A DNA stretch of 64,000 nucleotides, from positions 310,001 to 374,000 of the forward strand of contig NW_017265189.1 of NCBI RefSeq assembly GCF_001638985.1, read 5' to 3'. Source of the DNA: Phycomyces blakesleeanus NRRL 1555(-). Lineage: Eukaryota > Mucoromycota > Mucoromycetes > Mucorales > Phycomycetaceae. The stretch's first letter is position 1. Each line of letters starts with the position of its first letter. The notes under the pieces are model-generated. The model was not told where the DNA came from and ran no database searches. It saw nothing but the letters and a program-made list of their open reading frames with translations. Positions 3,530-50,953 of the stretch are shown here, in pieces. The position numbers were made by a program, and so were the translations under genes.

Positions 3530-4288
3530 ATGCTACTAAATCCACGAAGGATACTCTACTTCAATGGCTTCTCTACTGCAGAATCCAGACAGAATATTTA
3601 TCAAGATGTTCTACGAGTAAGAAAATTGACGGCCAGCATTCTTATTAATATAGGGAAAAATAGAGTAAGACCAATTGTAATAATACCAAGAAAAGCAAGA
3701 GAGAGAAAACATAGAAGAGGAAGACAAGATCAATTGCTGCTTCTGCTTCTGCTACTAATTTTGCTAATGCAGAAAAAGGGTGATACTTATAGATCTACCA
3801 ATTATTATAATACCTTCTAATACATAAACAGTAATAGAAGGCGCTGTATATCCTCTATGTCAACTTATGACAAGACCAAGCTGCGTACCATTTGCTTTCG
3901 TAGCGGCATGTTTGGGAAGGATGCTATATCTTTTCGCTATCATCGAACATGCGTAGCTGGTGTCATTTACCAACAATTGAAATACAGACAAAATTGTGAA
4001 GATCTACTGTTGGTAACAGTAGACGAGATTCGCCCTTCCAAGGTAGCATCTCATATATATTTTAGTTTTGTGTTAATATCTTACTGTTATTTAATATAGC
4101 TTTGACATCCTCGCAAAGAAGCTAACTTTACTCATGCTATTAATATGCTCTACCCTTTACTCGTTCCCCAGAGATCGGGAATAGTACGATAGCGTGATGT
4201 AAATGCAATAAAAAAAAGTATCTTTGGCATTACAAAGCAGGGAGTAAATGAGCAAGGACAACAAGCAACCTTTACAAAGAGTCGTTGA
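3530..4288 (+). pseudogene. Fanzor (TnpB-like nuclease) relic A
   Basis: Decayed C-terminal part of a eukaryotic TnpB-like RNA-guided nuclease. Frame 3857-4042 reads SGMFGKDAISFRYHR, then LLLVTVDEIRPSK, matching the family pattern of a glycine-rich 'GMFGKD' segment followed by 'V-DE-x-x-x-SK' just before the zinc ribbon. A plausible GT-AG intron (4043-4101) follows. The next exon starts L-stop-HPRKEANF, with TGA where the first zinc-ribbon cysteine is expected. At 4193-4288 the same frame gives RDVNAIKKSIFGITKQG and ATFTKS, the RuvC-III 'RDxNAxxN' block with its Asp, preceded by a TAG. The stretch 3530-3770 (basic, KARERKHRRGRQDQ) may be an upstream piece but is weakly supported. Stops and lost cysteines indicate a dead copy. 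Subfamily cannot be fixed without alignment. Confidence 0.62.
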
Positions 4289-4868: not shown

Positions 4869-5977
4869 ATGTCTGAGCGAAAGGTCCTCAACAAGTATTT
4901 CCCACCTAATTTCGATCCTTCGCAGATCCCAAGGCAGTAAGTAATCGAGTATTATGAGATGAATAAAGAAAAAAGAAAAAGGGCATTAGACTGATTAATG
5001 ACTTCAGGAAGAAGCCAAAGGATCTTCAGCACAAGGTTAGACTGATGGCCCCTTTCTCCATGCGATGTGAGAGCTGTGGCGAGTACATTTACAAAGGAAA
5101 GAAATTCAATGCAAGAAAAGAAACTGTCGAGGGCGAAGCATATCTTGGCATCAAAATCTTTCGATTTTACATTAGGTGAGTGTTTGAGTGTAATGTACTG
5201 CGCATACATAGATTCACATACATACACACAGAGAGAGAAAGAGAAAGCTCGCATATAAAATAATTCTAATGTGTATAATTTTTTCTATTTTTTTTTTTGG
5301 GTAGATGTCCCCGTTGCTCGGCTGAAATTACGTTCAAAACAGATCCAAAGAATACCGATTATCTTGCAGAGAATGGTGCAAGTCGTAACTTCGAGCCATG
5401 GCGTGGAGAGGGCGGAGAGGATGATAAGGGAGGTGTCGATGAAGAAGAAGAGGAAAGAGAAGATCCAATGCAGGCGCTAGAGAATCGAACACTGGACTCA
5501 AAAAGAGAAATGGAAATTATGGATGCTCTAGATGAAATCCGAACAAGAAATGCTCGAAGTGAGCGTGTAGATGTAGATGACGTATTGGATAAGTTTTCAG
5601 AAGAAGATCGGGAGCAAATCCAGTTAAGACTGACTGCAGAAGAACAAGAGGATGAAGAAGTCACAATATCATACTTCAAGTCAGGGGATGGTGAACGTGT
5701 GCGAAAGCTGTCAGATACAATAGAGCCGGATGCAATTACACTTGTCAACCAGTCTGAGGCAGCGAAGGCACTGACTTCATTTAAGGCATCATCATTCTCA
5801 CAGCAAGCTAAACGAAAGAAGGAGACTGAGAAACATAGTCTTGGGCTTGTGGTGAAAAAGAAGAAAACGGAAGAAAAGCCAAAAACAGTAACAGCAGCGA
5901 CTGCAGCAACTGCTCCTAATGCATTGTCGATGCTGGCATCTTACGATGACTTGAGCGATGATTCGAGTGAAGACTAG
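4869..5977 (+). CDS. YJU2: Pre-mRNA splicing factor Yju2/CCDC94 (CWC16 family)
   Basis: Spliceosome step-1 factor of the CWC16 family, acting with the Prp19-associated complex in the nucleus. Three exons join in frame: 4869-4936, 5008-5175 and 5305-5977 (302 aa). The N-terminus [20 protein letters not shown] is diagnostic. It is followed by two zinc-binding CxxC pairs, [20 protein letters not shown] (about residues 47-66) and [17 protein letters not shown] (about 77-93). The second half is acidic and coiled-coil-like ([12 protein letters not shown] onward), then lysine-rich, ending [12 protein letters not shown]. Introns use GTAAGT and GTGAGT donors. Length and order fit the family. Confidence is high. 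Confidence 0.95.
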
Positions 5978-29768: not shown

Positions 29769-32037
29769 ATGAGAAAAGAAGAAAACTATCCAATTAAACC
29801 AATTGAGGTAATTATCCTCTTGGGAATGACCGCCACAAAGATCAAACCATCGGCTTATACATCATTAGATCACTCTAAATGAACTTGACAGAGAGATGAA
29901 GCGGGTAGAACTTGTTTTTAAAAGAAAAGAATCGGAAGAGACTTGGGAGATGCACAACGCTGCTCTAAGAAATATGACTACATGGATTCTTAAACTTGAC
30001 GCCCATAAACAAACATATTTTATCGAACGCATAAAGAAACTAAAGGCACCAATCATTATATCAGTAAGCATTTCTTTTTTTTTAAAAAAAAATTATTCCA
30101 CAACAAAGCTGCGTATACAAAAAAATCTTATTTTGTGAGCATGTGTCGTTAATAGCTTCTGTCCGAACGTAGTCGTCTCTCAGGCACTGCTATGGAAATG
30201 CTCAAAGCACTTTCAAAAGCCATGAAAACCGACTATCAAGACATACACGAACTATTTGCAACAGCATTATTCTCTTTATTCAGTAAATCTAGCAAAGTTA
30301 CACACACAAGAGCACTTGAATGCTACAAGTCTATTGTTAATAACTCAAGCATCCCAAAAGGAATTCGTCACCTTTGTTTAGCCTTAAAAAAACCTCCAAT
30401 CCCCAACAAATCCGCGCGCGAATGTGCACTTGAATGCTTAAATACACTGATCCAAGTTAATGATCCTACTAAAATAACGCAATACATCCTAAGTATTGAA
30501 GAGACTATAAAAATCTCTGCAAAGGACCCCAGCTCGGAAGTAAGATCCAAGGCTCGTGTATGCTACAAAGCTTATCACGATAAGTTTACAGAAGAAGCAG
30601 AAAGGTAAAAAGAGAGAGAGAAATAAATGGATTTTTCTGTTTTTAGTTGAAAGAATGTGTGTATATAATAAAGAATCCCTTTGTAGATTTATCTCCAAGC
30701 TTCCCGATGATGTGAAGAGATACTTAATACCCACACTCAGTGCTTCCTCTAGTACAAGTATGTCGCATTCAGTTTCATCCTTGGGGCGCCGTGCTTCCAA
30801 CCAGAGCATTAGATCAGTACCCACAAAATCAGCATCAATTGGGACCAGAAGAATACTTGGAAATTCTACACTCACCAGTAAAGCCTCAAAGTCTCCAGTA
30901 AATCCAATAAAAAATGAAATAACGAAAGAAACTCCCACTAAAAAGCACAAACCCACATCAGAACCACTTTCTGAAGAACCGTCTAAAAAAATCTTGGTAA
31001 TCGAACCTTTGATAACAGACCATGAAGCACAACCTACAAACGAAGACCCACTATCACCTACCCCTAGTCTTCGAACACCTACACAAGCCCCTGAAGAAAC
31101 GTTTGTACAATCTAAGTCGGAGAACGCTCTAAATGAACTGGAGAATGAAGAGTCTCCGAAGGTCACACCCTCGCCAACTCTTCATCATAAAGTCTTAAAC
31201 GACCAAGTGACTAAGCTTGCTGAAACACAACCTGACAAACAACCTGAAGAACAGCCTGAAGAACAACCCAAAAAACCACAACTTAATGCTTCACCTTCAC
31301 CGACTACCCATCGTGGACTTAAACGTATTGCAAATACAGAGGCTGATGAAGCACGCTCTACAAAACGTATTAATGGGAGACAAATGAAACGCCCAGTAGC
31401 AACTCGACTTTCTACTGCTCGTCAAAGTGCAGTTCGTTCGTCCATGTCATTACCAGATACCCCTCAACCTGTACGTCGATCTCCAAAGCCAACAACTCCA
31501 CCACAAAGGCTTACTACATATCATAAACTTCCTCGAGTAGCCACACTTGGTAGCAAATCAACTCCTTTAATTGGTAGATCATCAACTGAGTCCACCAATA
31601 TAAACAAATCTCCCACTCAAATGTCACCAAAATCTGTCTTGTCACGAAGATCATCTACAGGGCTACCATCAACGGTGACCTCTTCTGGGTCTTCCGAAAC
31701 AGCCATGTCTTCTACACCCAATCCTTCATCCAGCTCGCCGAAAACTTTAAAGTCTAGTCCTTTAATTCGTAGAAAACGTATGATTGCTCGTATGGATTTG
31801 GGTCAATTTGATATAAATGAGTGTCTAAGTCCAAAAACATGTATGTATTTGTCGAATGTTTACAAAATTAAAATATTACTTATCTAACCATTTATTTCGC
31901 GTATACTTTCTAAAGATACTACCTTTAAAAAGCCACACTGTACTTCTGGAACTCCCATACGTAAAAAGCGAGTGAAGACTACACAAACTCAAGACAATGA
32001 GCCACGAGCGCTTCGACGTGATGTAAAGAGATCTTGA
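29769..32037 (+). CDS. CLASP-like microtubule-associated protein (single TOG/HEAT domain)
   Basis: Five exons join exactly in frame (29769-29807, 29869-30063, 30156-30604, 30687-31840, 31916-32037), encoding 652 aa. Residues about 14-245 form helical HEAT/TOG-type repeats of the CLASP_N kind, with NAALRNMTTWILKLDAH, LLSERSRLSGTAMEMLKALS, KSARECALECLNTLIQV and SSEVRSKARVCYKAYHDKF. The rest is a long Ser/Thr/Pro/Arg-rich disordered region (RRASNQSIRSVPTKSAS; RRSPKPTTPPQRL; SRRSSTGLPSTV), typical of microtubule-lattice binding. It ends with a basic tail (IRKKRVKTTQ). Full CLASPs have two or three TOG arrays and about 1000-1500 aa, so this is a short relative. Function in spindle or cortical microtubule stabilisation is inferred from the family. 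Confidence 0.75.
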
Positions 32038-35000
32038 TTACTATTATCTTTGTCTCAAGCACGATACCTTTTTGATTCATTCCTTTGCATACTTTCAAAA
32101 ATCCCTTTAAGAGAGATAAAAGAGAGAAAGATAAAAAAGAAGTATATTGGAAATTAATATCCCTCTTTGTATAGCATAAACTCATTTAAATTATATTCTC
32201 TAATAGACAGTCATATGTTTACTTGTATTTATAAAAGAATACGACATAATAAAAGTAATTTCTTAATAAAAAATTGTAGTGTGGTGCAATTGGGGAGGTT
32301 TATTACTTATTATCATTTTATGAAAAATGCCGGGACAATGATCAGAGCTGCGATTACTCTTATATAACAATCGTGCGAATCAAAAGAGCTACTTCTTGCC
32401 TGGCTGGTTTAATAGGTTTTCTTGATTGATGTAGTCTTAATGTTAAAAATATTAACTGTAGCTATGGGCTACTAATTAGTTTGAAGAATATAAAAATCCC
32501 TTTGTACTGCAAGAAAATTCGAAGCACAAACCATCTGGAAAAAATTCAAGTTATTATTTTTCTAATATAATGTATACAATATTTTGGTTGGTTTTTCTTA
32601 TTGAAGATATCAGCTCTTTATATCAAAAACCTGAATACCTCGATAATAATATATATCTAATTAGTGCTTCTGTCTCTTCCAATCTGAAATAAAATAAATG
32701 AAATATTGGCTATTGGCTATTGTCTCTGTTGTATACGAATATTCAAGAGTGCTATATGTCTGTCAATATTTGCAGTAATTAACGTGTTTTAATATTATTC
32801 AAATGCAAAATAGTATACCTTAAAAATCTGTACTTTACCCATACCTTTGATATATGTGCTGTTATTTCCTGGGATATTTAACTTATACTACATAGTCCGG
32901 AATGGCTGGGCTTGTTTGTATCAGTTTTACCCTCGAATAAAAGGATAAAGTTCGAACTTTTCAGTAGTATTCATTTAGTGATTGCTTTCATTTTTATTAA
33001 TATATAGCTAATATTGAGCGTCTAGAGCTCTTAAAAATTAACGTATATCATGTTTCACGCTATCATCACCAAACATATGATGACAATCACTCATTCTCTT
33101 GGGAAATCGTCTTGACACTTTCAACTATTGGTTTAACCTCATTTCAATAAAACTCAACCTGGAATTCAAAATTTCGTCAACTATCGTATTGTAATGAGAT
33201 TTAGTTAGTATATACATATATATATATTCTACTTTTTACTTATTGCTTAATTTCATTTGGGAATATACGTGGGTTTATTTCTTAGTGGCTACTTGGTCCC
33301 TTTTGTGTCTACTTGTCCAAACAAAATAAAAAACTTTCTCTTGTACCCTTAAACAAAAGTGCACAGACCACTTTAGAGTAACCTACAAATCGCCGCTATA
33401 GAAACCTGTACTCCACCTTTAGTTATTTTGCCACGCCGATCAAGATTAAACCTTTCATTACTTCATTAATTCTTTGCTTTACTTCCCAAATTCATTTTCT
33501 GTAGCAATTTGATTAAATATTATTAGCTATATATTCTGCTGTAGAACAGTTACACAACCCCAATAAAAGAATATACAGCTATATCACGTTTACTCTGACG
33601 TGGACATCTAAGACTGACAAAAAGCGCAGTCCTAATCTTTAATCTCAGATGCAAAATTTTCTGTTACATATAGAACCCCTCCAACGCGCATCGTTTGTTT
33701 TCTCCTTGAGCAACAACAGTCCTGGTTTCATAGTGAGGCGTCTCTTGCGACCGTTGCAGGGAGATTCTTCCATGCTACAAGCATCGGAAAGTGAAAGTTG
33801 TTACTCGCCAGCTCAGTTAATTCTGAGAAGTCGTGGGGCATGGTCTCTTTTCTTTTGGAAAGACTACTGTGTACATCGCATCGCCAATGTGGAATCATGA
33901 TGCTGGGGGGAGGGAGGTCTAACCTGTGGTGAGATGTGCTGGCTCTTCACTGCTAACCTGACTGAACTCTTTAACGGCTGACGGTGAAGCTACTGGTAGT
34001 CGAATGAGCTGGACCTTATCACCTAGTGGTAAGTTCTCTGGCGAGTTCGCACCCACATTACTCGGTGACGAGATGTGGGGCTGGATGAACGGGTGCTTTC
34101 CGTTGGTTTGCCACCATTCCAGCACCTCCTTCGCTACCAAGTCAGGTTTACGTCCTGAAGGAGATTGAGCCGCGTAATGCGGGGACAAAGAACTTGGTGT
34201 CATGCTTTTTATTCTTTTACTCATGTAAAAGAACATTAAGTGAAATTTAATCAAATAGAATAGTTTCTTTACATGTATCTTTAAATAAATAAATAAAGTC
34301 TTTCTTATCTATTGTCAGCTTTAATAAAAAAAAACACGCTTTTAAACATTTTTTTTTTACTTGATTGAAGTCAATGTTGTAATTAGGAGGGCTCATTTAT
34401 AAGAAGAAATTAATTAGTCAAATAAATCTGAAAAGAAATAAAATAATGTTTGTATATTTTGACGTGGTATCGTCAATCTTCTTTAACTACAGATGCTGTT
34501 TTTGTCTATAAAGTATATAAATTGCAGAACAATGTTTGAGGATGCCGATGCCGTGAATTTTATAATATTGAATTTGGCTAGTGCGGATGGAGATTGTAAA
34601 GAGGATTTATTGGAATGAGAGAAAATTCAAGAGAAATGAAGAGAAATGAGAGATGAGAAAGAATATAGGCATGTGTTTGACAGAGAGACAGAAAAAACGT
34701 GATGAAGAATGAATACACACTAAGGCCCTCATTTTATTTACACAGATTGTGTGCAAGAAGTTTAATATTGACCTCTCTATAAACCAATGACCATTATCTA
34801 CAAGCATTTTTTGTATTAAAGCCAATCCATTGATACAATTATTTGTATGATGCTGCCTTTATGTTTTTCTTAGGTACAAGTGTTCAAAAGACTATTGTTT
34901 TATCATTTCAATATCGTCAATTTTTCTTTAAGCTACCACCAAAATTTATTTATTTTTCAATTAACCTTTGAAGAGATTTCAGAAAATATTTCCTGTCCAG

Positions 35001-35268
35001 AAAAAGACAAAATATTAATTTAGATTGATAGAGAACACTCTTGTACATCTTGTCATATTCGAGCGACTTAATGAAAGACTTAAAAAAGTGTTTCAATGTT
35101 TTTAAAAAGCATCTCATCTCGGTAATACTGCAAATCGCATTGTAAGTAGTCAATTAACTGAATTAAAAAATATACAATCTTACCCAATTTCTTAGTATAT
35201 CGTCCCTATCAATTGGCACATTTGATAGCACCAAGCAAGTAAGCTTCACATATCTATCTTGTTGTGAG
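32038..35268. other. 3.2-kb AT-rich gene-poor region
   Basis: Mostly AT-rich sequence without a gene. The exception is a block at about 33640-34225 with clearly higher GC, listed separately. The stretch 34950-35268 lies just 5' of Fanzor relic B and may include its former promoter. Confidence 0.45.
33919..34224 (-). pseudogene. Unrecognised ORF in a GC-shifted island (possible mobile-element remnant)
   Basis: The start at 34224 gives MSKRIKSMTPSSLSPHYAAQ, then DLVAKEVLEWWQTNGKHPF and VQLIRLPVASPSAVKEFSQV, ending AHLTTG. The block 33640-34225 is much richer in G and C than its AT-rich surroundings. Beyond the stop another minus-strand frame stays protein-like (FSELTELASNNFHFPMLVAW, then KNLPATVARDASL), suggesting a frameshifted or intron-split continuation. 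No family recognised. A gag-like fragment or a gene remnant brought by transposition are options. Confidence 0.35.
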
Positions 35269-36252
35269 TTGGAAGATAGTAAACATCATTACCCCATTCA
35301 GAGTCCTAACTGTGAAGACATCACTACAAAAAATCAGCTTGGGGGAGTGCCACAGTTCTTTGAATATATACAAGGCCTGGTTTTTAAAGCCCATACAGTT
35401 ACCATACACACGTACACACTCAGCAGATACATCTTTCGTCCCGAGTTAGCACGCAAGCCATCCTTCGACATTAACGGATGAATTAAACAAGATATTTTTG
35501 TCAATGTCTCTTTATTGTTGCTCGGTTTTCATACTACTTCCTACTATATAACAGAAACGACAAGGTAAACTTGTAAGTTCATTTATCGCTACGACGGTGC
35601 TTATATTACGATGAGTTTTTCCATCCTCAGCTCCTCTTGCACAAATACCAAAAGTCAAAAAAATCGTCAATATTTAATCCGCACACTTCGTCCCTCTTCT
35701 TATAATAAGCAATCCAAAGCCAATAAATGTATGTATGTCAAGAAATAACAGTGCTTAATTTGGTTGGTCTTCTATATGGATAGTGAAAAACTAGTCTGTA
35801 CCTCACAACCAATACCATAAACGAATTAAAGATGCAATAATGAGATGTCTACTTCGCAAGCATGGATTTAATGCTTGTTTGTTTGATGAACTTAGTACTC
35901 CCGAGCATTGTTTTTCATGCTCTCAACCTTCCCTTTGAACCTTCAAGTAAGTCGAAAACTAGCCAATATTGCCACACTTAAACGCCAGCTATAGCATGCC
36001 ATAGTCTTCCAAGACAAATATTACAACCAGTCATCACTGCTTTGTTATTCATATTTCTTATAAATCTACGCATATTTACCAAATCAAAATTGTTTGAAGG
36101 TCATGGCTTCGTTAAAGTTTGAACATCGCTTGCGGAATAAAGATCTTGCTGCTGTCCTGAACTTCCGATATATACTTAACCAATTGAGACATATTTGTAG
36201 TATGCCTGAAGTATTCGCCCGTGTCATTCAGGTCGGCAATACTAAAATGTGA
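35269..36252 (+). pseudogene. Fanzor (TnpB-like nuclease) relic B
   Basis: Three blocks in family order. (1) 35269-35560: QFFEYIQGLVFKAHTVTIHT and YTLSRYIFRPELARKPSFDI, matching the helical N-terminal region of mucoralean Fanzor proteins, with an in-frame TGA after it. (2) 35759-35959: FGWSSIWIVKN, a TAG, then HKRIKDAIMRCLLRKHGFNA, CLFDELSTPEHCFSCSQPSL, TGA, TFK. This is the 'GxWS' strand, the 'LRKHGF' helix, the acidic DE and the first zinc-ribbon C-x2-C. (3) 36103-36252: HRLRNKDLAAVLNFRYILNQ, the RuvC-III 'NxDLAAxLNFRxI' block with its Asp, then the usual MPEVFARV end. The blocks are in different frames. An intact gene would need several hundred more residues between blocks 1 and 2. Dead copy with internal loss. 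Confidence 0.78.
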
Positions 36253-37260
36253 ACGGAAGAAGATGTTTGGGAGGGTCATCCTGTGAGATGAGGACTGGCA
36301 AGAGTTCAAAGAAGATAACTGTTTTCTCCTAATATCCCTAGAATTCACCCAAAGTACCAATGGCAAACTATTACATTCTTTGAATAATTTTATCACCTTT
36401 ATTTTTGTATTGGGTTGAAGAAGTGGGTAAAGATGCTTTGGATTGATTCCAAAAACATAGTATGTAAAAGTGGGCTATTTTAAAAATATGACATTACTTT
36501 TAAAATGCGATAATAGTAAAAACAGAGAGAGAGAGAATGAAATTGAAACGTATTTATGTTTATATATTTATAAACTTATATTAAAAAGAGAAGAAAAATT
36601 AGTGCTTAATCGAAATTCCACTATAGAATACACTTTTAACCTCGGAAAAGCTTGCGAAAATCTCACTAAAATCGTCTTTTTTAACCAGTGTATGAAACAA
36701 TTCAAATTGTCTTCACATTTCTTCAAGAACAATAACAGGGTTTCAAAGTGCATACTGTGCCAATATTTCCACATATAAATATGACAGCGATTTAACTGTA
36801 TCTAGATTTTAGCATCATGTAGGAAATAAGACCTTTCTTACAATAATGAAGGGTATACAAATATTTTTTGTAGCTAGTCTTTTAACCATTTAATTTTTCT
36901 TAACCTTAAAATAAGATACTATACTGGATTTCTATTTGTTTAAATATGCCAGACATGTAAATACAACATCTTTTTTGTTAATATAATGTTAGAATATTTA
37001 GCATAGAATCTAATATTATTTATTTAAAGTATCGCATGCTATATGTGAAGCGGGTGTATATTATGGAAGCTTCTTCAGTTGTTTGTATATGCATGTTGGA
37101 GAAAGTATTTGATTTTTCTATAGAGCAGGTAAAGGTAATAAACGATCTCTAAATACTATATATTTATATGTATATATATATTAAACAATGAAAAAAGAAA
37201 GCAAGCAACTTGATTGTTACTATGATTATATGGGTATAGACTACTTAACAAAATTGTGGA
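36253..37260. other. 1-kb spacer, no gene
   Basis: AT-rich sequence between Fanzor relic B and the stop of the first ELL-like gene. Overlapping ORFs on both strands at 36470-36780 lack recognisable features. Confidence 0.4.
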
Positions 37261-40022
37261 TTATACATCTTCTGGGATTATATATCCTTGAAGTCCATGA
37301 GCGGTGGTGATGATAGAATAAAGAAGCTCCAATTTTTGCCGTAACCAGAAAAGTCGCTTGACAATGTATACAACATACCTCCAGTCCTCGGGATGACCCT
37401 CCAAGTCTAGAAAGACTGCTTTGAGTTTAACAATCACATCATCTTTTGGTCCAACTTCCACAGAAGATTTTGTCAGCATCTCATGAATAATCGGACACTG
37501 TTCATCAATTGTTTCATTGAGAAGTTTGACTTCTTCTTGAGCCTTTTTGTGTTCCAAGCAGAGTTTACTGAATTGAGTTTGGCTGTTGACGATTGGAGCC
37601 CGGTATGGTTGTGGAAAGCAATTTGATGATACATCGTAATTAGAAGTATCTATGTATCCACATTTAACTTTGCATTCAAAGTAAATTACGGTTTTAAAGC
37701 TTTTTTAAAAAAAAAATACCTTCGTTGGGTGGTTTTTCCCATCCAACTACACTTTTTGAAGAATATCTTGGTGTCGTGGTTGTATTTGATGGTTGGGGTG
37801 GTGTTACGTTTGTAGCCATAGGTAATGGTACTGCCGATGGTGTAAGTGTAGGAACTATAGAAGGAGATTGGGATACTTGATTTTTTGATGGTGGGGTTGG
37901 AGCTCGAACTGATAACTTTGCCGGTTTTTTGGAAGGTACTTTGACCAGTTCCTTTACAGGCGAAGCCATTTTGCTTGACATTGGTATTTTTTGTGATGGC
38001 AAAGTTTTTGTAAATTCTGTAAATTTAGTTGGTGTTATTACTTTTGTAGGAGTTGGTGTATTTCCCGGTGTCTTTGTCGGAATGGGTATTTTTGCAGATA
38101 TTTTTGAGGATGACTTTAAGTGGAGATTTTCTGATACTGTCAATTTTGTCGGTGATGGAGATAATATTATTGATGATTGTGCAGGTGTAGGAGTAAGCGT
38201 AAGAGTAGGTGTGGGGGTAGGCGTAAGTGTGGGGGTTTCTAACTTCGGCTCTGATATTTTTGTACTTGTAAGTGCCGTGGATTTTAGTTTGCTAGGTTTT
38301 GATTGCTTTGGCATGGATGCAGGGGAAACTGAGCGGGTCGAAACTTCGCGAGATTCCTTTGTAGCCTTAATGCCGCCCAATGAAGATTTTGTACTAGCAG
38401 ATTTTTTTGGATCAACTCTCTCTTCAATTTTTTTACTTGACTTCTGACGTTCGTTTCCATTACTGTATCCTGGTTGATCCGAACGTCGTCGCACAGAGCC
38501 CATCAACCCTTGTTTTCCATAATTTTCGTCTTTACTGTGGTCTCTCTTTTTAGGAATAGTAAGTAAGTTTTTATCTTTTAGTGGGGATGAATTGTTGCTG
38601 GTATTCTGCTGCCCTGAGTTTGGTCGTGAAGAACGAGGTGTAGTTGGAAATATTAGGTTTGCACGTTCTGGCGCGTCTGGTGAAAGCTTCATGGCTTTAT
38701 CATACATATTTTTGGTGTTTTGGATTACTGTACGCCGATTTTTCTCACTGTATCCCGGCCATTCCCAAATATTCAGTTCGGTGTGTACAATCGGATATAG
38801 ATGCCATTGATCCTCAACAGGTAACGCAACCTAAGAAAACAATGGAAATAGAGTTAATGTCAATCAGCTTTGGCCAAAATACAAGCAAAATGCCTGACTA
38901 TGATTTTTATTACTTCATTTAGGATTGGCATAATACTCTGACTTTCTACATTTAGCTTTCGGCACAATACTCTAGTGCTGGCAGAGTTTAGCGCGAGCAT
39001 ATGGATAACCTCTTTTCTGAGACTATCTTTGGATGTCCGTGAGTCGGTGCTGGTTGACCTTTTGAGAGTTGTATCTACATTACTTGGTCTCCTTGTTTGG
39101 AGATCTGTGCCATGTTTCCTTTTTGGCGAAGGCTCTATACTGTCATGTCTTCTCGAAAGGGTATTTGTGTTGCTAGATCGTCCGGATCCTTGATCTAAAC
39201 TACTTGGTCTTTTACCCGACACCTCAGAGTTCTTCACCTTTCTAAGAGGTGCGTCTACACTGCTTGTCTTTTTGATAGAAATATCAGAACTGCTGAGTTT
39301 CTCAAAAGAATTCTTGATCTTTGACTGGGATGGTCCTGAAGATACGGCGGTTGAATGCTGCTGAGTCTGAGTCGAGTGAGATGCAGATGCAGGTACAGAT
39401 CGAACAACAGGCTGTAATTTTTCAGAATTATTATTTTTTGTGGGACTCTCGGTGTTCACATTATATGTCTCGCGCACAGTAGTAGATTGAAGCTGATTGT
39501 GAGCAGATACGGCTGATGCTACGGAAGCTGGCCGTTTCGATGCCGGTTTCTTCAGTTTTTTTGTGTCTGGGAAGTCTCTTTTATCTTCTTCATCTAATAG
39601 TCTCTCTCTCTTCTGCTGCTGCTGCTGGATGTTCTCATTTGTTTTTGCACTCGGCAGTTTGCGAGTAGGCTCCTTGATCATAGAAGGTTCTCCAAGTGTA
39701 CCTTCGTGGCTAATATCGCATGTATGGTACATGATATTGCTACTTCCAGTATTTTTGTACATATGAGATGCAGTGTCTACTTTTTTTACGTTTATAGGAT
39801 ATACTTTATTGCCAATGACAATAGTCTGATTGAATTAAACGCCATGAGTTGACTGATACAGACAAGAAACATTAAATGCATCTTAAAGCACGTATGACTT
39901 ACTATACCATTGCCAGTGACATTTATTTTGATGTTTCTACGACCTTCCTGGCCATGATGAAGGTATGCTAATGCATCTGATGGTAGACGCAAAGAAATTG
40001 CTTTTGAGAATTCGTTCTTCAT
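37261..40022 (-). CDS. ELL-like RNA polymerase II elongation factor, copy 1
   Basis: Probable ELL-family factor that stimulates RNA polymerase II elongation in the nucleus. The start at 40022 gives MKNEFSKAISLRLPSDALAY, then NIKINVTGNGI and, in the next exon, IVIGNKVYPINVKKVDTASH and DISHEGTLGEPSM. A winged-helix-like part follows: IHMLALNSASTRVLCRKLNV, then NIWEWPGYSEKNRRTV, as in ELL proteins ('W-PGY'). A long Ser/Thr/Pro/Lys disordered region comes next, including TPTPTPTLTLTPTP. The last exon ends with a helical domain, HKKAQEEVKLLNETIDEQCP and WRYVVYIVKRLFWLRQKLEL, in the place of the occludin/ELL domain. About four introns. Family call rests on overall layout and should be checked by profile search. 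Confidence 0.7.
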
Positions 40023-41985: not shown

Positions 41986-44322
41986 TTAGATACCGTCTGG
42001 GATGGTAAATTCTTTCTTGGAACAAGTATTTTCGATGAATGGATATAAAAGCTTGATCTTTTGGCTCAACCAAAAGAAACGCTTGGTCATGTACACAACA
42101 TAGATCCAGTCTCTTGAATCTCCACCGAGATTCTCAAATGCCTCTCTAACCTTGTCAGATATATTATCACTTGGGCCGAGATTCAAAAGATTCTTCTTGA
42201 ATAATTCATGAACAACAGGACATTGCGTATCGATTGTGTGTTTTAGTGCCCACGCCTCTTCCTGTGCATGTTTGTGTTCGATACACAGCTTATTGAAATG
42301 TGCTTGTGATGTAACGTTTGGAAGACGATATGGTTTAGGGAATCCATCCGGAGATTCGGAAGAGCTCCTTGCTAATATATCTACACCAAAGCATGTGTTT
42401 AATAACATGCAGAGAACATACACATACACATTTCTACGTTTATTCTAGTAATTTAATACCTTCTGCTTTTTTTATACGTCTAATTTCCCTCTTGGAGTCG
42501 TGGGTTGATGTTTTTGATGGAATTGATGATAATGGTGGAGGTGGGGGCGGAGGTGGAGGTTGGATTGGCGCAGGAACTGTTGGAGGTGGTGGTGGAGAGG
42601 AATGATCTTTTGGGGCCAATTGTGGTGGAGGCGGTGGCAGTGGCGGTAATGGTGATTTAATTGGAAGTCTTTGTGGAGTATGGTTACTAGAAGATACTGG
42701 AACCGATTTCTTTGATTCGGCGTGTTTTGGCCGAGAATTAGGATGAATAGGTGGAGCGATCTTCTTGTCTTTCTGATCCATGATCCTATCGATGGGAGAA
42801 ATTGAATGAACGGATCGAAGGTCTGTTTCTTTCGATTTACTAATGATATTTGATGGTTGTGGTTGTAGTGGTGGGGTAGACTTCCCCTTTGTCGACTTGA
42901 CATCCAAAAGTTCCCGTTTTCTTTGGTGCACGGAGGTTGATAACGTATCGTAGTTTTCTGAAACACGCCGAGAAGTGACAGAAGGCGATCGCTTACGAGG
43001 TCTATCTTCCAAGCTTAAATCTCTTTTTTTATTAAGTCCGTCTCGATCTATTACTGGAGATAAATGGCTGCCTTGTTTGTGAATTGTTGGTTGGGATGGC
43101 AGTTTTGGTTGAACTGGGGGGATAAGATTAGCACGTTCAGGTGCATCTGGAGCATATTTCATCCGTTTGAACATTTCTTCTGCTTCTCTCGCAACAGCGC
43201 GTCTAGTCTTGTCATCGTATTCAGACCATGTCCATATTTTGACCTCAGGATATATTTCAGGCATAAGATACCAAATTCCATTTGTTGACAAGGCTACCTG
43301 AAGCAAAACAAAATAAGTTGTACCTTTTTTTAGAGTATGGATTTTACACACAGAGACATAGACACACACATATGAACAAGCAAACACACATGAAAATGTT
43401 ATCCATTGAAATGATATCTACCTTTTTAAGGATTGGCATAAATGTCGAAGTACTAACACCCAATTTTCGTGATAGTGTTTGAGGACTAAGGGATTCAGCA
43501 GCAAGTATGTGAATGAGTTTTTCGCGGATAGCATTTGTAGCAGCAGAAGGTCTGCTGGATTCAACACTTTTCCGCCGTTTTGTTGATCTGTCTGTACTAG
43601 ATGTTCTACGACTAGTGTTGGAACTAGATGACTTTTGAGTAGGGGTGTTTGGTTTAGAGTGAGCTGATCCGATCGACGAAGATCCAGATACCCGTAAGAG
43701 CTGGTTTGTGAGAGGAGTTGTGGCATGGGACTGAGATTGATGTTTTTCTGTAGGCCTACGACTACCGGTACTACTGCGGCGTGCAATCGATTGATCTGTC
43801 GGAAGACTGGGAGACTGGGAGGTAGGTACGGTGCGTCTGGACGACGGTTTCTTTAACTTTTTCGGTGCCGGTGTCTCTGTTCTGTCTGCGTCATCAATAG
43901 TGCGATCTCTCTTTGTGGGTGTTCGATGTTCAATTGCTATAGGGGCTTCTTTGACAGTACCGGTGTAGGTAATGTCCCCGGAATGAATCATAGAGATTGC
44001 ATGACTGGCTTGACGGTACAGATGAGCGGGATCATTGGATTTTGTTAGGGTTACAGTGTAAGTTTTATCGTCTAGGATGATGTTCTAATGATATGATTCA
44101 ATGTACTGATGAGAAGAAGAAACAAAAATAAAATAAAGAGAGAGGGAGAGAGAAAAAAAAAGAAAGAAAGAATGAGAGATATTGTAGAATAGGATCACTT
44201 ACGACACCATTACTGGTGACATCGAGCTTAAAATTTTTGTGCCCGTCTTGAGCACTGCGGAGACGAGCTAATACTTCAATGGGTAGACGTAACGAAATAG
44301 CCTTTGGGGCAGTGTTCTTCAT
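41986..44322 (-). CDS. ELL-like RNA polymerase II elongation factor, copy 2
   Basis: Tandem paralogue of the gene at 37261-40022, same strand and same exon layout. The start at 44322 gives MKNTAPKAISLRLPIEVLAR, then NFKLDVTSNGV, and in the next exon NIILDDKTYTVTLTKSNDPA and GDITYTGTVKEAP. The winged-helix part reads KLIHILAAESLSPQTLSRKL, then VKIWTWSEYDDKTRRAVA, then MKYAPDAPERANLIPP (compare copy 1, KLSPDAPERANLIFP). The disordered middle is rich in proline (PPPPPPPPLSSIPSK). The C-terminal helix domain has HFNKLCIEHKHAQEEAWALK and WIYVVYMTKRFFWLSQKIKL. Divergence in the middle but conservation at both ends indicates both copies are under selection. Confidence 0.7.
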
Positions 44323-50508: not shown

Positions 50509-50736
50509 ATGAAACCACCAATCCATCCCGGAAATCCTGTGTGGAAAACTCGTTCAGAATGGCTCAAGATGAAGGAATCCACTGCTGTCGATATCATTAT
50601 TACGAAAGAACAATCACGAGATGACCTGTTAAAGAAGTTTAGACTCAAAGACGAAATCACAAACCAGGGGTGGGGCGATGAACCCGTCGAAGCAGAAAGT
50701 GGTTGGGGAGAACCAAAAGCAAGCAGTGGATGGTGA
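50509..50736 (+). CDS. 75-aa protein with GW-repeat C-terminus
   Basis: Short intronless ORF starting MKPPIHPGNPVWKTRSEWLK at 50509. The middle is charged and helical (EQSRDDLLKKFRLKDEI). The last 25 residues hold three Gly-Trp sites in acidic/small-residue context: NQGWGDEP, ESGWGEP, SSGW-end. Such spaced GW motifs occur in Argonaute-hook peptides of RNA-silencing proteins, so AGO binding is possible, but this is inference from motif pattern alone. No signal peptide. A start further upstream is blocked by stops. The ordered composition and the position right after a promoter-length spacer argue for a real gene. Confidence 0.6.
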   Translation: MKPPIHPGNPVWKTRSEWLKMKESTAVDIIITKEQSRDDLLKKFRLKDEITNQGWGDEPVEAESGWGEPKASSGW

Positions 50737-50953
50737 AAAAAAAAACGAGCTTTTGTGGGGGTGTTTTTATTTTATTTTTATTGAATAAAAGGAAAGAGAC
50801 GTGGGAGTATGCGCTTGTGTATGTGTGTATGAAGAGATAAAAGAGATAAAAAAATAAAGAAAAAGAGAGATAAAGAGGGATTGATAGAGACAGATAGAGA
50901 CAGAGAGAAGAAGGGAATTTATATACACGAGGAAAGAAAAAGGGAGACTGGCA

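Follow-up and report, generated by a model that had tools for sequence, protein, structure and literature searches.

The Fanzor-like sequence that we have analyzed in Phycomyces blakesleeanus NRRL 1555(-) is very probably a dead copy of a non-autonomous Fanzor1 transposon derivative, which would have undergone an internal deletion, spread in trans and then decayed. The Fanzor1 descent of this copy, its membership of a repeat family, and the presence of a common deletion junction and a common stop in that family are observed directly. The copy is most likely inert now. The stretch of DNA under study, which we call the window, has 64,000 nt and corresponds to C32:310001-374000. The searches described below indicate that the window copy belongs to a repeat family present throughout the genome, and is not a single gene dead in place.

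Three Fanzor1 blocks are found on the + strand at 35368-36315, in the order N-terminal, middle, and last, when the window is compared by tblastn with the pieces of L014, a better copy on contig C27 of the same genome. The coordinates are given in Table 1. The blocks score 66.6, 77.0, and 72.0 bits, while the best score in 200 dinucleotide shuffles of 35000-36500 is 22.7 bits. A preliminary description, made from the raw letters, had proposed a decayed Fanzor gene with these three blocks in order and a large missing centre. All of this is borne out: the tblastn search matches all three blocks to one family, that of L014, in order, and L014 itself matches solved Fanzor 1 proteins. Other parts of that description need correction. 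It placed the feature at 35269..36252, but the similarity goes beyond this end, and the repeat as a whole extends much further, from 33065 to about 36682. It also listed the motifs GxWS, LRKHGF, DE, and C-x2-C in the middle block: the last three are present, while GxWS is broken, a stop replacing the W of L009 and L010. Finally, the feature was named "gene B", which would imply another gene: we have found no second Fanzor1 piece in the window at E <= 1e-3 with 47 relative proteins (tblastn, whole window). One weak match of these proteins is found elsewhere, at 50636-50812 (E 0.009).

Table 1. Features of the window copy and of the unit which contains it (window coordinates).
Feature	Coordinates	Strand	Basis
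Whole unit in common with L009 and L010 (R repeat and deleted Fanzor element)	33065..36682	+	blastn
R repeat core, two-exon Phycomyces-only gene; in the common unit, not part of the Fanzor element	33700..34250	-	
Weak remnant directly upstream of the N-terminal block	35263..35340	+	tblastn, 42% identity, E 0.004 / 0.002
N-terminal Fanzor1 block, residues 2 to ~81 of the 263-aa L014 piece	35368..35608	+	tblastn, E 5.5e-15
Internal deletion junction	35603..35620	+	DNA alignment of 12 deletion copies and tblastn coordinates
RuvC-II and first half of the zinc finger (LRKHGF, DE, CFSC)	35620..35959	+	tblastn to L014, E 2.0e-19
RuvC-III block, NKDLAAVLNFRYILNQ	36079..36315	+	tblastn to the 85-aa L014 piece without low-complexity filter, E 4.5e-19
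Decayed 3' end of the element	36578..36690	+	alignment; terminal CTATAGGGTA of relatives lost in the window copy

The full N-terminal alignment, to which the E value in Table 1 belongs, spans 35368-35643 (residues 2-87 of the 263-aa L014 piece) and includes IHTYTLSRYIFRPELARK. The middle block, which aligns to residues 150-261 of the 280-aa piece, is interrupted by stops and shifts frame between 35727 and 35735. The RuvC-III block is also found with low-complexity filtering (36082-36246, E 7.8e-14). Here the second pair has retained only one of its two cysteines (NQNC, compared with CTNLNC in L014). At the 3' end, the segment 36578-36682 aligns with other family members. The window copy jumps from residue ~81 of the N-terminal block to residue 150 of the 280-aa piece, and about 360 residues are missing: 182 from the first piece, a 31-codon link, and 149 from the second piece. 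The RuvC-I motif of L014, LIDPGRR, falls inside this gap. The first catalytic aspartate, which is part of RuvC-I, lies within the deleted centre, so the window copy is a relic of Fanzor1 and not a Fanzor nuclease. The names RuvC-I, II, and III are those which we take to apply to these blocks; they agree with the alignments of the 280-aa piece to solved Fanzor 1 proteins.

The identity of the family is clearest in L014, which has three long pieces of 263, 280, and 85 aa in one frame. L014 has stops of its own, and its last gap, bordered by GT...AG, looks like an intron. The closest solved protein is Parasitella parasitica Fanzor 1 (9cf0), with E 7.8e-48 for the 263-aa piece and 1.1e-41 for the 280-aa piece; Spizellomyces punctatus Fanzor 1 (8gkh) gives 3.4e-4 and 2.2e-20, respectively. 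Among 5.8 billion proteins we have detected 47 relatives at E <= 1e-5, and all 39 which carry an organism name are fungal. The window copy also matches Fanzor-like proteins of other fungi directly, for example P0006 (E 3.0e-13), and these similarities identify it as a Fanzor by descent. Pfam does not detect a Fanzor model in the raw frames of the window; its only match there, to NDNF_C on the opposite strand, is below threshold. In L014 the only Pfam match is to Cas12f1-like TNB, also below threshold (E 0.045). Rfam finds nothing at E <= 1 in 32000-38500. According to PMC3627910, the Fanzor1 motif is D-X(125,275)-[TS]-[TS]-X-X-C4 zinc finger-X(5,50)-RD. The [TS]-[TS]-X-X stretch followed by a C4 zinc finger is absent from the window copy, which reads STPEHCFSC where L014 reads ATSRYCPRC. 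At the RD site it has NKDLAA, compared with NRDVAA in L014: the D is kept and the R has changed to K.

We have searched the whole genome (53.5 Mb, 60 contigs). A 47-aa block of the window copy, SVPHN...QPSL, has 48 matching places, and the 280-aa L014 piece finds 121 matching pieces among 137 candidates. With 48 places listed, we have read 26 copies, the window copy and 25 others. In 13 of these the N-terminal block is joined to residue 444-468 (joined numbering): the window copy, L009, L010, L012, L017, L018, L021, L022, L023, L028, L029, L030, and L031. Five copies start at 444-460 and have no N-terminal block (L016, L024, L025, L026, and L032), and L020 begins at residue 471. The centre is whole or partial in the remaining seven: L011, L013, L014, L015, L019, L027, and L033. 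A second common deletion, from ~555-559 to 623, is found in seven copies (L017, L021, L022, L024, L028, L029, and L030). L021 and L022, both of which contain Fanzor sequences, form a large inverted duplication (C15:197400-217200) with an identical run of 8319 bases.

Both borders of the main deletion are readable in L013, L014, L015, and L033 when these are aligned at the DNA level with 12 of the 13 deletion copies, and all 12 have one and the same junction. Tree and codon analyses included 11 of the 13 deletion copies (L022 and L030 were left out) and three of the seven long copies. In the tree, which is midpoint-rooted, a 100/100 branch separates the deletion copies from the long ones; the deletion copies would be a clade only if the root lies outside them. 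The tree places the window copy together with L009 and L010, both from contig C20. The tblastn coordinates place the junction in frame in the window copy, L009, L010, L017, L023, and L031. A stop is found beside the junction, after TR (or TK), in 10 of the 11 deletion copies; it reads AAGGTAAAA, which could also be a splice donor. A second stop, before YSP or YNP, is present in seven of the 11. The preliminary description had suggested an internal deletion before pseudogenisation. This may be refined: because the deletion and the nearby stop are common to copies on other contigs, both would have preceded, or come early in, the spread of the subfamily.

Differences between the window copy and the 10 other deletion copies amount to 0.290, 0.240, and 0.233 at codon positions 1, 2, and 3, with no excess at the third position. 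When the deletion copies are compared with L013 and L014 the values are 0.302, 0.268, and 0.376, and the third-position excess is the one expected for an earlier coding past. These counts agree with a sequence which was coding until the deletion and, in the lineage of the window copy, no longer coded afterwards. The dN/dS values (Nei-Gojobori) are 0.92 for the window copy and L009, 0.94 for L013 and L014, 0.58-0.91 for L009 against L018, L017, L031, and L023, and 0.48-0.61 for the six pairs among these last four. L018, L017, L021, L028, L031, and L023 differ among themselves by 0.116, 0.098, and 0.130 at the three positions, slightly more at the third, and some coding constraint may possibly have persisted in this branch after the deletion.

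The element has a sharp 3' end. It reads CTATAGGGTA in 13 of the 14 aligned ends outside the window and CTATAAAGTA in the other one, L010. TA follows CTATAGGG in the same proportion of ends, and a variant in L010; it is also found at the 3' end in six of six further cases. Six of 20 stretches do not have a 3' end of this kind (L011, L012, L015, L020, L023, and L027). A 24-mer from the 3' end has 76 matches in the genome, 41 of them exact, and the reversed control has none. At the 5' side there is a common start, CACTGTAGGAAATGGC (CATTG in one copy), with TA 0-2 nt before it in nine of 11 loci. This count leaves out L040, L042, and L044, which have a different start, L021, which is the same as L022, L014, L015, L024, and L028, which are cut short or different, and one locus with an unreadable left end.

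TA beside the ends fits a putative assignment to the Tc1/mariner superfamily. Terminal inverted repeats of the Tc1/mariner kind were not found: the 76 matches of the 24-mer include one inverted pair less than 10 kb apart, in L026. L026, a region of 4.9 kb, is the sole copy with close inverted ends (3693-3788 and 5433-5525, 87.5% over 96 bases), with a left arm in which a copy of the family's 3' end is fused to the usual 5' start. A long-TIR element, an idea suggested by L026, was dropped, given this single pair. Pfam finds no transposase in eight frames of the L022 5' part. No proven target duplication was found, and none longer than TA was seen. The ends read CTATAGGGTA and do not show the CTRR 3' end of Helitrons.

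Scoring of 40 of 256 candidates has revealed nine shorter relatives, which have the 5' part and the 3' end with, between them, only a piece over the RuvC-III region. We have rejected the idea that they are Fanzor-free elements: their middle piece (query 1580-1683) overlaps the L026 RuvC-III block, which points to further deletions. L014 and L022 are 86-87% alike at both ends; identity in the middle block of L014 and L028 is ~0.70. Several copies (L013, L014, L016, L022, L024, and L028) look like mosaics, with ends 84-94% alike and middle Fanzor blocks 66-75% alike, suggesting exchange between lineages. L009 and L018 run on past the common terminus with TAACC(T/C)ACTTGTGCGC, about ten bases in common, unlike other copies.

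In 71 of 91 pairs the 3' 90 nt show higher identity than the coding block, and the opposite is found in the other 20. A consensus fold of nine 3' ends is weak (-4.9 kcal/mol), with two-sided change in one of 14 pairs. It seems very improbable that the conserved 3' ends of deleted copies are omega-RNA genes, which would supply the few Fanzor proteins still present with guides in trans. If this were true, dozens of nuclease-less copies would steer where the family cuts and spreads.

The 5' half of the unit in the window is foreign to the Fanzor family. It consists of a repeat (R) which, with its core, spans 32665-34821, and is also found in this position in L009, L010, and L018, although L018 is placed elsewhere in the Fanzor tree. 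The unit is 85.5% identical to L009 over 33065-36485 and 85.2% to L010 over 33069-36485 (blastn). A 40-mer from the R core is found at 66 dispersed places, 57 exact, nine with one mismatch, and none with two or three; the reversed control gives none. We have scored 40 of 106 R candidates. In the 15 copies read, pairwise identity averaged per 50 bases is 0.96-1.00 over 33700-34299 (about 99% in the core), compared with 0.65-0.92 in the common flanks, 33100-33699 and 34300-34799. The core is consistent with a two-exon minus-strand gene (P0058, 143 aa, in a cluster of 56 sequences). Its database relatives are Phycomyces proteins in 27 of 27 cases, and it has no Pfam or Rfam match. The intron is as invariant as the exons, with 3/65 variable columns against 20/303 and 3/119. 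Copy L059 is frameshifted, the ATG at 34224 is altered in three of 15 copies, and gene models begin either before or after it. For both strands, the RNA folds are somewhat more stable than those of shuffles (z -2.5 and -2.25). This pattern points to an old repeat whose near-invariant core would be due to gene conversion or strong selection: the core looks homogenised or under strong constraint at the DNA level. Five inverted pairs of core copies, ~13-22 kb apart, are found in contigs C4, C9, C26 (twice), and C43, for example C9:239810+ and 261749-. On the other side of the element, two adjoining minus-strand genes (37261-39834 and 41986-44084) have clearly similar parts, FPQPYRAPIVNSQTQFSKLC and FPKPYRLPNVTSQAHFNKLC, seen by eye, and are likely a tandem duplicate.

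The origin that we favor for the window copy starts with one ancestral copy which would have lost the ~360 central residues, with a stop next to the junction. Having lost RuvC-I, it would no longer have been able to cut DNA. The outer parts of Fanzor would have been retained, as would, in most cases, the 3' end. Non-autonomous elements move with enzymes supplied from elsewhere, and we infer that this also applies to the ancestor of the window copy: such enzymes would have spread it to many sites, where its copies would then have decayed without coding constraint. This ancestor presumably made no protein, and a transposase from another source would have mobilised its copies. Long elements did exist, as the seven copies with a whole or partial centre indicate, and a full element might have been inserted at the window, undergoing a private deletion and decay there. 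The same DNA junction in all 12 aligned copies, on one 100/100 branch, makes this extremely improbable. Multiplication by segmental duplication instead of transposition would account for the 3.4 kb, including the unrelated R repeat, which the window copy has in common with L009 and L010, and for the inverted L021/L022 copies. Yet we consider it unlikely, since the family stops sharply at its terminal sequence in many unrelated places, as seen in the 76 matches of the 24-mer against none for its reversed control.

It might also be proposed that the deleted gene coded for a small Fanzor-like protein lacking RuvC-I, which was selected for a while, for instance as an RNA-binding or regulatory partner. 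The in-frame junction, found in at least six copies, agrees with this proposal, as does the dN/dS of 0.48-0.61 in one branch, a value below 1 which had suggested a selected mini-Fanzor to us. However, 10 of 11 copies have the stop at one and the same codon, a second one is common to seven, and the third-position excess is weak or absent: we have largely dropped the idea, which now appears quite improbable. A deletion derivative which was mobilised in trans and decayed is the origin that we retain.

Several known systems may be compared with this family. P. parasitica Fanzor 1 (PpFz1, PDB 9cf0-9cf3; PMC11423790), the closest solved protein to L014, has the same order as the L014 family: the N-terminal part comes first, followed by RuvC-I, then RuvC-II with the zinc finger, and lastly RuvC-III. 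PpFz1 is active as an RNA-guided nuclease, whereas the window copy lacks the RuvC-I centre and has stops and a frame change. Three Fanzor1 families were described in 2013 in the same P. blakesleeanus strain (PMC3627910). The present family may be one of them. One of the three, PBl-3, is reported to have MuDR-like TIRs and 9-bp TSDs, neither of which is seen here. In the same paper, the Chlamydomonas Fanzor1 Helitron families CRe-1, CRe-2, and CRe-3 are also non-autonomous, with frequent internal deletions, 5' truncation, and intact 3' ends. They are Helitrons, however, while the present family does not end in CTRR and gives no sign of rolling-circle replication. MCi-2 of Mucor circinelloides, also described there, has varied 5' regions on a common Fanzor-bearing 3' part and no recognisable TIRs, and is similar in that the 5' half of the window copy, L009, L010, and L018 differs from the rest of our family. 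MCi-2 copies are ~99% identical, with 11-12 bp TSDs, while the present copies are old (the window copy is 85% identical to its nearest relative) and show no TSD longer than TA. A non-autonomous Fanzor1 element is also described in an ascovirus (PMC10711439).

In the open-licence literature we have found no description of a deletion subfamily of Fanzor in Phycomyces. Internal deletions, intact 3' ends, or variable 5' regions have been known in Fanzor1 families since 2013, so the interest of this one is modest. The window copy alone changes little, and the computation bears out a call made from raw letters. In summary, a Fanzor1 transposon of Phycomyces would have given rise to a multiplying derivative without RuvC-I, much as the Fanzor1 families of Chlamydomonas have done. 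Its copies, which have one junction in common and a strongly conserved 3' end, may be useful material for work on the function of the ends of these elements.
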